From assembly GCA_017305715.1 (NCBI GenBank), contig JAFKKG010000045.1:1-45782 (forward strand): DNA of 45,782 nucleotides, written 5' to 3'. The notes under the pieces are model-generated. The model ran no database searches. It was not told the origin of the DNA and saw nothing but the letters and a program-made list of their open reading frames with translations. Shown here piece after piece: positions 34,134 to 34,811 of this stretch (its first letter is position 1; every line of letters begins with the position of its first letter). The position numbers were made by a program, and so were the translations under genes. Source of the stretch: Hyphomicrobiales bacterium (GTDB taxonomy: Bacteria > Pseudomonadota > Alphaproteobacteria > Rhizobiales > Xanthobacteraceae).

Positions 34134-34436
34134 ATGAAACTCAGAACTCTTGGATTGGCCGCAGCGCTTACGTTGGCAAGCACGTTTGCCATGGCGCAAA
34201 CCGGAACCGGTTCGACCGGCGGCACCAGTTCGGTGGGCAGCCCCTCGCCGAGTGGCACCACCGCGGGATCATCGACCAGCGGAACCACGACCGGTTCCAG
34301 CGGCATGAGCAACGGAGCCGGCAGTGCTGCCGCCGGTGCGAACAGCACGCAGAATCCGTCGGGAAACTCCTACATTAATCCCTCGCCCAGCGGATCGACG
34401 TTGACGCCAGCACCGGGCTCGGGCGCGGGACGGTAA
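34134..34436 (+). CDS. Small secreted Ser/Gly/Thr-rich protein
   Basis: A 100-residue protein. Residues 1-22 form a clear signal peptide (MKLRTLGLAAALTLASTFAM, cleavage after AMA). The mature part is low-complexity: about 78 residues made almost entirely of Ser, Gly, Thr, Ala, Pro and Asn, with a loose repeat of SPSPSGTT and NPSPSGST elements. It has no cysteine and few charges, so it is probably disordered in the periplasm or outside. Ribosome site aaagga lies ahead of ATG 34134. A strong terminator at 34461-34489 ends the unit. Function unknown. Confidence 0.8.
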   Translation: MKLRTLGLAAALTLASTFAMAQTGTGSTGGTSSVGSPSPSGTTAGSSTSGTTTGSSGMSNGAGSAAAGANSTQNPSGNSYINPSPSGSTLTPAPGSGAGR

Positions 34437-34460
34437 CCACGACGCTCCGACATCCACACG

Positions 34461-34489
34461 AACAGCCCCGGGATTACGCCGGGGCTGTT
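34461..34489 (+). terminator. Rho-independent terminator
   Basis: Perfect 11-bp arms AACAGCCCCGG and CCGGGGCTGTT with a 7-base loop, followed by a short T-rich tail (tttcgcttt). It separates the small secreted protein gene from the GG-leader peptide gene, which therefore needs its own promoter. Confidence 0.88.
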
Positions 34490-34592
34490 TCGCTTTGCGT
34501 GAGATCGGTCACGGCAGCGGTCCGGCCGGTCGTATACCCCTCCGATCATCGATAGCGGGAATGATCTCGCATCTGATTCACCGGAGATCCAA

Positions 34593-34766
34593 ATGACCAA
34601 GTTCGAAACTTCCGAAGTGCTCGACGACGCGGCGCTGGAAATCGTAGCTGGCGGCATGATCAAGTGCCCCGGGCCGATCATCCCCACCGGAACCGGTCCG
34701 ACCTTCCCGACCAATCCGTTTCCGTTCCCGATTCCGTTTATTCCGCTTGGTCCGTTCCGCTGGTAA
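34593..34766 (+). CDS. Double-glycine-leader, proline-rich microprotein (candidate exported peptide)
   Basis: A 57-codon gene with ribosome site ggag (34583-34586) six bases before the ATG and its own terminator at 34788-34811. Residues 1-21 match a GG leader: MTKFETSEVLDDAALEIVAG plus Gly21, with Leu at -12 and -7, Val at -4 and Gly-Gly at -2/-1, the pattern cut by C39 peptidases of bacteriocin exporters. The 36-residue core (22-57) starts MIKCPGP, has 11 prolines and 5 phenylalanines, one cysteine, a PFPFPIPFIP stretch and ends GPFRW; net charge is about +2. No C39-peptidase exporter or modification enzyme is visible nearby. It could be a bacteriocin-like or signalling peptide; family and function are unknown to me. 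Confidence 0.75.
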   Translation: MTKFETSEVLDDAALEIVAGGMIKCPGPIIPTGTGPTFPTNPFPFPIPFIPLGPFRW

Positions 34767-34787: not shown

Positions 34788-34811
34788 AGGCCGCCCCGGT
34801 CGGGGTGGCCT
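34788..34811 (+). terminator. Rho-independent terminator of the microprotein gene
   Basis: 10-bp arms AGGCCGCCCC and GGGGTGGCCT (one G-T pair) around the tetraloop GGTC, followed by gtttgccttt. It begins 22 bp behind the microprotein stop and ends 22 bp before the convergent rlmE stop. Confidence 0.8.

Follow-up and report, generated by a model that had tools for sequence, protein, structure and literature searches.

A 57-codon double-glycine leader peptide gene built like a leader-cargo fusion, one of a dispersed set of similar candidate genes in a Bradyrhizobium genome

In this study, we found that a 45,782-nucleotide stretch of DNA from a Hyphomicrobiales bacterium (GCA_017305715.1, contig JAFKKG010000045.1; referred to here as the window) contains a gene of 57 codons for a double-glycine (GG) leader prepeptide, in which the leader of one gene and the core of another, called A and B and adjacent in related strains, appear joined in frame at the Gly-Gly codons. 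We consider it likely that this gene arose by fusion of A and B, and that its product is a prepeptide switched on by a CRP-type activator, cleaved after Gly-Gly and exported by an NHLM transporter. The gene itself, its homologues, its fused structure, the operator with its spacing, the exporter genes, and the co-occurrence of exporter and leaders are read from sequence comparison. The features to which the text refers are as follows.

34593..34766, + strand: GG-leader prepeptide gene, 57 codons plus stop (reading frame, homologues)
34593..34655, + strand: leader, 21 aa, ending LDDAALEIVAGG, apparently of gene-A origin (best match gene A of L032, MTEFKTSDLLDDAALEIVAGG)
34647..34655, + strand: GCTGGCGGC, the Ala-Gly-Gly codons, putative junction of the fusion, with C39 cleavage predicted after Gly21 (alignment)
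34656..34763, + strand: core, 36 aa with 11 Pro, apparently of gene-B origin (35 of 36 residues the same as gene B of L031)
34583..34586, + strand: Shine-Dalgarno-like GGAG (sequence)
34555..34570, + strand: small 5'UTR hairpin GCGGGA-AUGA-UCUCGC (same place in relatives; not significant against shuffled sequences)
34499..34512, + strand: operator GTGAGATCGGTCAC, a CRP-type palindrome GTGA-N6-TCAC, 94 nt before the ATG (palindrome search)
34533..34540, + strand: candidate -10 region TATACCCC, in which 34536 is the A 37 nt into the operator alignment, position +37 (class II geometry)
34460..34490, + strand: terminator-like hairpin upstream, between the gene and the ORF at 34134-34436 (folding)
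34788..34811, + strand: terminator-like hairpin behind the gene (scan and folding)

The translation of 34593-34766 (+) is the leader MTKFETSEVLDDAALEIVAGG followed by the core MIKCPGPIIPTGTGPTFPTNPFPFPIPFIPLGPFRW and a stop. The original prediction, made from the window alone, had described an ATG with a ribosome site and 57 codons, which was borne out with GGAG at 34583-34586. Likewise, the leader fits the GG consensus as described (Leu at -12 and -7, Val at -4, Gly at -2 and -1), and the core matches its description, with 11 prolines among 36 residues, a single Cys and FRW at the C-terminus; it has only one Lys, one Arg, zero acidic residues and no Ser. When a leader HMM was trained on 22 other GG ORFs of the own genome with the window gene excluded, this frame came top among the 1069 six-frame segments of the window, with E 0.02 against E 15 for the runner-up. 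With this rank and a core that related strains conserve, the frame is more than chance, and the gene is confirmed as real. The two terminators that had been proposed around it are supported by folding. The hairpin behind the gene starts 22 nt past the stop and folds at -31 kcal/mol with a z of -4.6, although the terminator scan alone is not significant for it, with three sites against 2.1 expected in the region; the upstream hairpin (-24.5 kcal/mol, z -4.8) is absent from the list of the scan. A significant 5'UTR hairpin at 34555-34570 was rejected, with z values of -0.3 in the window and -1.0 to -1.7 in the three relatives folded. The upstream neighbour at 34134-34436 (+) is a small Ser/Gly-rich ORF, the start of which resembles a Sec signal peptide by eye; it has no match in Pfam or NCBIfam up to E 10, and L031, L033, and L034 have a comparable ORF upstream.

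Homologues with a conserved frame, on which the original prediction had made itself depend, were confirmed by tblastn in five public Bradyrhizobium genomes; in all five the locus is the same, next to rlmE, and the frame is preserved. L031, L032, L033, and L034 have two adjacent GG-leader genes at this locus, gene A (for example MTEFKTSDLLDDAALEIVAGG followed by VQEGGCIPGRPVPKPPYPTGDWTFKDVFVRWTIG) and gene B (for example MNKNELSLDELNKVAGG followed by MIKQTCPRLPTGTGPTFPTDPFPFPIPFIPLGPFRF), and the more distant L041 (G267) has an A and B pair at the same locus with diverged cores. In the alignment, the window gene is leader A with the upstream region of A, joined to core B: its core scores 206 against gene B of L031, versus 22 for its leader, and its leader scores 87 against gene A of L032, versus 34 for its core. 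Furthermore, L031 carries the identical 9 bp GCTGGCGGC at the Ala-Gly-Gly codons of both A and B, and removal of about 185 bp between the two copies (in L031 and L032 coordinates) gives the window arrangement in frame. The fused architecture, read from one assembly, is consistent with such a deletion of about 185 bp between repeated Ala-Gly-Gly codons, that is, a natural cargo swap at the cleavage site. Since L031 to L034 and, with diverged cores, L041 have both genes, the two-gene arrangement is likely the ancestral state. We infer that the event ran from two genes to one because the most diverged member has two genes and the reverse would need an insertion exactly at the Gly-Gly codons. In L035, gene A was lost by a different deletion and B was kept behind the operator, so two lineages ended with core B alone.

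Both genes are rare in the genus. Strong gene-B matches (E 1.6e-10 or better) were found in 7 of 265 genomes, the own genome included, and 13 further genomes with matches of E 9e-4 to 0.05 were not counted as homologues. Gene A matched in 14 of the 265 genomes at E <= 0.01; G206, G216, G217, G218, and G267 have A at this locus, and the remaining matches, that of the own genome included, are A-type paralogues or weak matches. As they hold the same peptides, G206, G216, G217, G218, and G012 are apparently the five confirmed relatives and add no extra evidence. With the window protein as query, plasmids gave no match, and 63 of 100 genomes matched, but only the own genome, G012 and G043 did so below E 0.018, the weaker matches being taken as proline-rich noise. 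The match in G043 (L003, 37%) was rejected as spurious, since it is antisense to a long frame, which we take to encode a NodC-like glycosyltransferase.

Selection on the core is purifying, an outcome that the original prediction had also left to comparison. Between the window and L031, core B shows 6 synonymous differences in 27.2 sites and 2 nonsynonymous in 80.8 (dS 0.262, dN 0.025, dN/dS about 0.1), the changes amounting to 6 synonymous ones and one changed codon; the dS of rlmE for this pair is 0.353. The core dN against the other four relatives is higher (0.152-0.172) and falls mostly in the N-terminal third of the core. Part of the core constraint may predate the fusion. The homologue alignments also show that frame and GG motif are kept through changes in leader length, and that the final F to W change is found only in the window among the six sequences. 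The core Cys moves or is missing among homologues, with none in L033, and a conserved disulfide was rejected on this basis. As a separate observation, 44 bp of core B (34716-34759, CCGTTTCCG to CCGTTCCG, with several T-ending codons) are identical in all six sequences, synonymous positions included, versus an rlmE dS between the same six strains of 0.11-0.45. This invariance may hint at constraint at the RNA or codon level, in a stretch that was selected post hoc.

The own genome does contain paralogues in which a leader of this kind precedes other cores, a possibility that had been raised as a question. A leader profile, built from the window gene and two other leaders of this genome among others, matched 28 places in it at E <= 10, of which 12 reached E <= 0.03. 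By eye, 24 of the 28 were kept as plausible short GG ORFs, one of which (L073) is an NHLP-like precursor; L077, L081, L082, and L083 were dropped as long unrelated frames or for want of a start. Three later additions, the A-type paralogue C1:174097, an exporter-linked ORF (L055) and L146, the latter two found through the operator itself, brought the candidates to 27, some of which may not be genes, as the leader matches are short and the weaker ones were kept by eye. The window gene thus appears, judged by leader and upstream sequence, to be one of a dispersed GG-leader set that mostly shares an operator. In an order-wide sample, leader matches at E <= 0.001 occurred in 9 of 397 genomes, 5 of them outside Bradyrhizobium. 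When the best 31 candidates were scored per genome, G012, G206, G216, G217, G218, and G124 each had at least 14-26 leader matches at E <= 0.03, versus 12 in the own genome and 8 or fewer in the other leader-positive genomes.

The operator recurs in this set. Of the 24 GG ORFs collected purely by leader similarity, 17 have an exact GTGA-N6-TCAC in the 130 nt upstream, namely 9 of the 12 ORFs with a leader E <= 0.03 and 8 of the 12 with weaker matches. After the three additions, two of which were found through the operator, the count is 20 of 27. In 17 of these 20 the palindrome stands 86-99 nt upstream of the start chosen, and the remaining three are L064 (119), L075 (72), and L070 (48), where a start 15 codons downstream (MNTRND) would set the operator at -93. 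Three of the seven candidates without an exact palindrome within 130 nt have a version with one mismatch 91-96 nt upstream. Aligned on the palindrome, the own sites have A at +37 (37 nt after its first base) in 20 of 20 and T at +41 in 15 of 20, versus A37 in 20 and A37 with T41 in 5 of 83 control site-orientations of the same genome, the +37 column having been chosen after the fact as the best of 60. The window gene has A at +37 and C at +41. This A37 spacing puts the palindrome centre 29.5 nt before the -10 box, i.e. at -41.5, the position on which the site is centred in CRP class II promoters. The own operator sites fit the class II geometry as judged from a column picked post hoc, from which a transcription start at about 34547 is predicted in the window.

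At loci elsewhere in Bradyrhizobium, 27 of 37 GG ORFs have the operator in front of them, compared with 29 of 2502 short ORFs of other kinds, a count over related and not independent strains in which the GG rule is mechanical, and these sites have A37 in 23 of 26 and T41 in only 7 of 26. For G218, 7 of 12 leader matches have the palindrome in the usual range, with A37 in 5 of the 7; 4 have none, and one further match is the second gene of an A-B pair. Outside the genus, 8 of 9 leader matches have no palindrome in the stretch examined, and the ninth, L178 (G519), a long-leader frame, has one 39, 102 or 138 nt before its possible starts and lacks A37. Absent or without A37 outside the genus, the operator seems to be a feature of Bradyrhizobium, as far as sampled. 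The palindrome occurs 209 times in the own genome; among 46 examined of 50 sites listed, only 5 are before GG ORFs and many others sit in long open frames, and the reading of all 209 as operators was rejected. The figure of 209 against 5 for the reversed-pattern control was not used as enrichment, because GTGA and TCAC are common in coding DNA. For the regulator, a CRP-type HTH model gave 23 matches in the own genome, 13 over cut-off. Recognition helices were read with L157, near a contig end, left out, and include ARESVNR in L155, which also has a cyclic-nucleotide-binding domain, and TRESINK in L156. As the recognition helix of E. coli CRP has R-E-x-x-x-R, L155, which has this motif, and L156, which comes close to it, are candidate regulators, as a lead.

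The exporter that the original prediction called for was found as well. At E <= 1, the own genome holds a single Peptidase_C39 match, which scores 129.8 bits where the cut-off is 22 and lies in a gene that is also over cut-off for NHLM ABC1 (TIGR03796, 1060.2 bits). Adjacent to it are genes over the curated cut-offs for a second ABC protein, NHLM ABC2 (TIGR03797, 860.9 bits), and a HlyD-type partner, NHLM HlyD (TIGR03794, 292.6 bits). The window gene and the exporter are on different contigs. A GG ORF, MNHDLLNDEQLSIVNGG followed by AHGDGTGGGTGGGGGKGTGGGDGLGWLRNLLRGIFRF, is placed between ABC2 and a patatin gene that also encodes a cyclic-nucleotide-binding domain; this ORF has the operator at -91 and a match to Bacteriocin_IIc of E 0.002, below cut-off. 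The patatin gene (L055:2386-4239, - strand) adjoining this ORF combines a cyclic-nucleotide-binding domain with a patatin-like phospholipase domain. No exact operator was found in the 300 nt preceding the HlyD gene. Across the 265 genomes of the genus, 67 have NHLM ABC1 over cut-off, 71 have leader matches at E <= 0.03 and 58 have both, so that leaders occur in 58 of 67 exporter-positive versus 13 of 198 other genomes (Fisher P 8e-36, a value that ignores shared ancestry). Among the nine exporter-positive genomes with no leader match at E <= 0.03, G035 does hold a GG peptide (L043), and among the 13 leader-positive genomes with no exporter over cut-off, G206 (16 leader matches) and G274 have partial exporter matches.

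In the scenario that we favour, a CRP-family activator would bind GTGA-N6-TCAC, centred near -41.5, and turn the promoter on. The 21-residue GG leader of the 57-residue prepeptide would be recognised by the C39 domain of the NHLM-type ABC exporter, which would cut after Gly21, and the 36-residue proline-rich core would leave the cell with the help of the HlyD-type adaptor and, presumably, a TolC-like channel. The gene would owe its present form to a deletion between the Ala-Gly-Gly codons of tandem peptide genes, by which leader A and its promoter were joined to core B. Homologues, core selection and the C39 exporter all agree with an exported GG-leader peptide, and to that extent the original reading is supported, though the window by itself could reveal neither the probable fusion of neighbouring peptide genes nor the dispersed set with its largely common operator. 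Its suggestion of an antimicrobial or signalling role is carried over only with low confidence, as antagonism or, in second place, signalling between near relatives.

How far the gene is functional was weighed against two other explanations. It is rather unlikely that the fusion left a gene in decay, with a frame that is intact only because the event is recent. Gene A is missing from the L035 lineage too, through a different deletion, and a second lineage without it could mean that the locus is eroding; the F to W change unique to the window would fit this too. However, the gene retains an intact start, Shine-Dalgarno sequence, GG motif, reading frame, operator and terminator, both derived lineages retained core B behind the operator, and the core dN/dS against L031 is about 0.1, albeit with a low dN that may partly predate the fusion. 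Still more improbable, to the point that we give it hardly any weight, is a fortuitous frame over a conserved RNA or DNA element. The 44 bp unchanged in six strains with an rlmE dS of 0.11-0.45 might be taken that way, but the changes between window and L031 over the whole core are 6 synonymous ones and one changed codon, the leader HMM puts the frame first, and frame and GG motif are kept despite changes in leader length.

If the product is exported, it may be asked what it does and whether it is modified. That it is a bacteriocin, resembling class II microcins and killing relatives, is possible, though we lean against it. GG leaders and C39 exporters are used by class II microcins (PMC13174018), and there are weak family matches below curated cut-offs, to ComC for the window gene (E 0.29), to Bacteriocin_IIc for the exporter-linked ORF (E 0.002) and to Mersacidin for gene B (E 0.16). 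On the other hand, no neighbour looks like an immunity gene, the adjacent genes being the Ser/Gly-rich ORF without a family match, an MFS transporter and rlmE; the core charge is low and its Cys, missing in L033, is not conserved; and dispersed single genes with mostly one operator type resemble a shared programme more than toxin-immunity cassettes. A modified RiPP precursor, of the thiazole/oxazole or lanthipeptide kind, is quite improbable. The NHLM exporter family has been described with such precursors (PMC2887384), and one YcaO gene (G000:C35:283890-284837, L175) lies about 3 kb from the NHLP-like precursor (C35:280745, L073). But the window leader, at 21 aa, is of another kind than that precursor and on another contig, the core has no Ser and no Cys conserved across homologues, and the lanthipeptide variant was rejected since LanC-like PF05147 has no match in the own genome at E <= 0.01. 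The 57-aa protein matches no NCBIfam model up to E 10, in a search whose HMMER filters drop most matches above about 0.1. L073, with its long leader, and the YcaO protein L175 are possibly a thiazole/oxazole peptide cluster of their own that shares the NHLM exporter.

The window gene resembles several known systems in part. Cationic proline-rich antimicrobial peptides have about 30% proline with Phe and Ile between the prolines; the window core has a similar proline share and Phe/Ile between prolines but, with only one Lys and one Arg, is not strongly positive. A close precedent is offered by the NHLP/N11P (nitrile hydratase- and Nif11-leader) precursors with their TIGR03794/03796/03797 transporter described by Haft et al. 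2010 (PMC2887384), the main text of which has 0 occurrences of Bradyrhizobium. That description likewise includes a three-gene exporter, a GG cleavage motif and several variable-core precursors per genome, some of them far from other genes. Unlike these, the window leader is 21 aa long and matches neither nitrile hydratase nor Nif11, LanC is missing, a single YcaO is encoded elsewhere and most members share a CRP-type operator. With class II microcins as described in PMC13174018, the gene has in common the GG leader, the C39 peptidase exporter and the HlyD-type partner, but it has no adjacent immunity gene or exporter, and the exporter is of the two-ABC NHLM type. The same source reports engineered leader and cargo parts joined via a TGGC overhang at the double-glycine motif; the window gene would be an in-frame join at the same motif that arose naturally, so that nature seems to have used the joint of the engineered system. 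Cyanobacterial double-glycine sets (PMC3140520) similarly combine diverse cores with a C39 exporter and include precursors missing from annotation (46 of 290 in a table of that paper), but the precursors counted there are close to clusters, whereas most of those reported here are on contigs other than that of the exporter. The same paper (PMC3140520) also cites Dirix et al. 2004, who had earlier screened genomes of Gram-negative bacteria for GG peptides.

A wider reading, to which we give even chances, is that some Bradyrhizobium keep a dispersed library of at least 20 short GG-leader peptides that have no immunity genes of their own. One type of promoter, CRP class II, would drive most of them and one NHLM exporter would serve them all, while deletions between tandem Ala-Gly-Gly codons would make new leader-cargo pairs, the window gene being an example caught in the act. 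If this is true, the cleavage motif doubles as a joint for cargo exchange. In our full-text literature search, judged by titles and abstract openings and with most subscription papers outside reach, no report of a GG-peptide regulon in Bradyrhizobium was found. One overlooked small gene opens the way to an entire candidate regulon. Taken together, operator, promoter spacing and leader predict about 20 secreted peptides in a single genome from a genus noted for its nitrogen fixers, and one transporter with a short list of regulators offers a common handle on many of them.

Two further observations concern the cores of these peptides. The cores of L068, L078, and L084 in the own genome have NPQPLPP in common; in L084, which has a different leader (leader score 26), it stands almost directly after GG, possibly another leader-core reshuffle. 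A-type peptides of several Bradyrhizobium (L042-L046, L048, L051-L053, and L050:1501) vary in the middle and have one motif in common at the C-terminal end of the core, GGW-x-M-[RKQ]-D-[IV]-[WF]-x-[RK]-P, which continues with TLGTYH in five of the 10.
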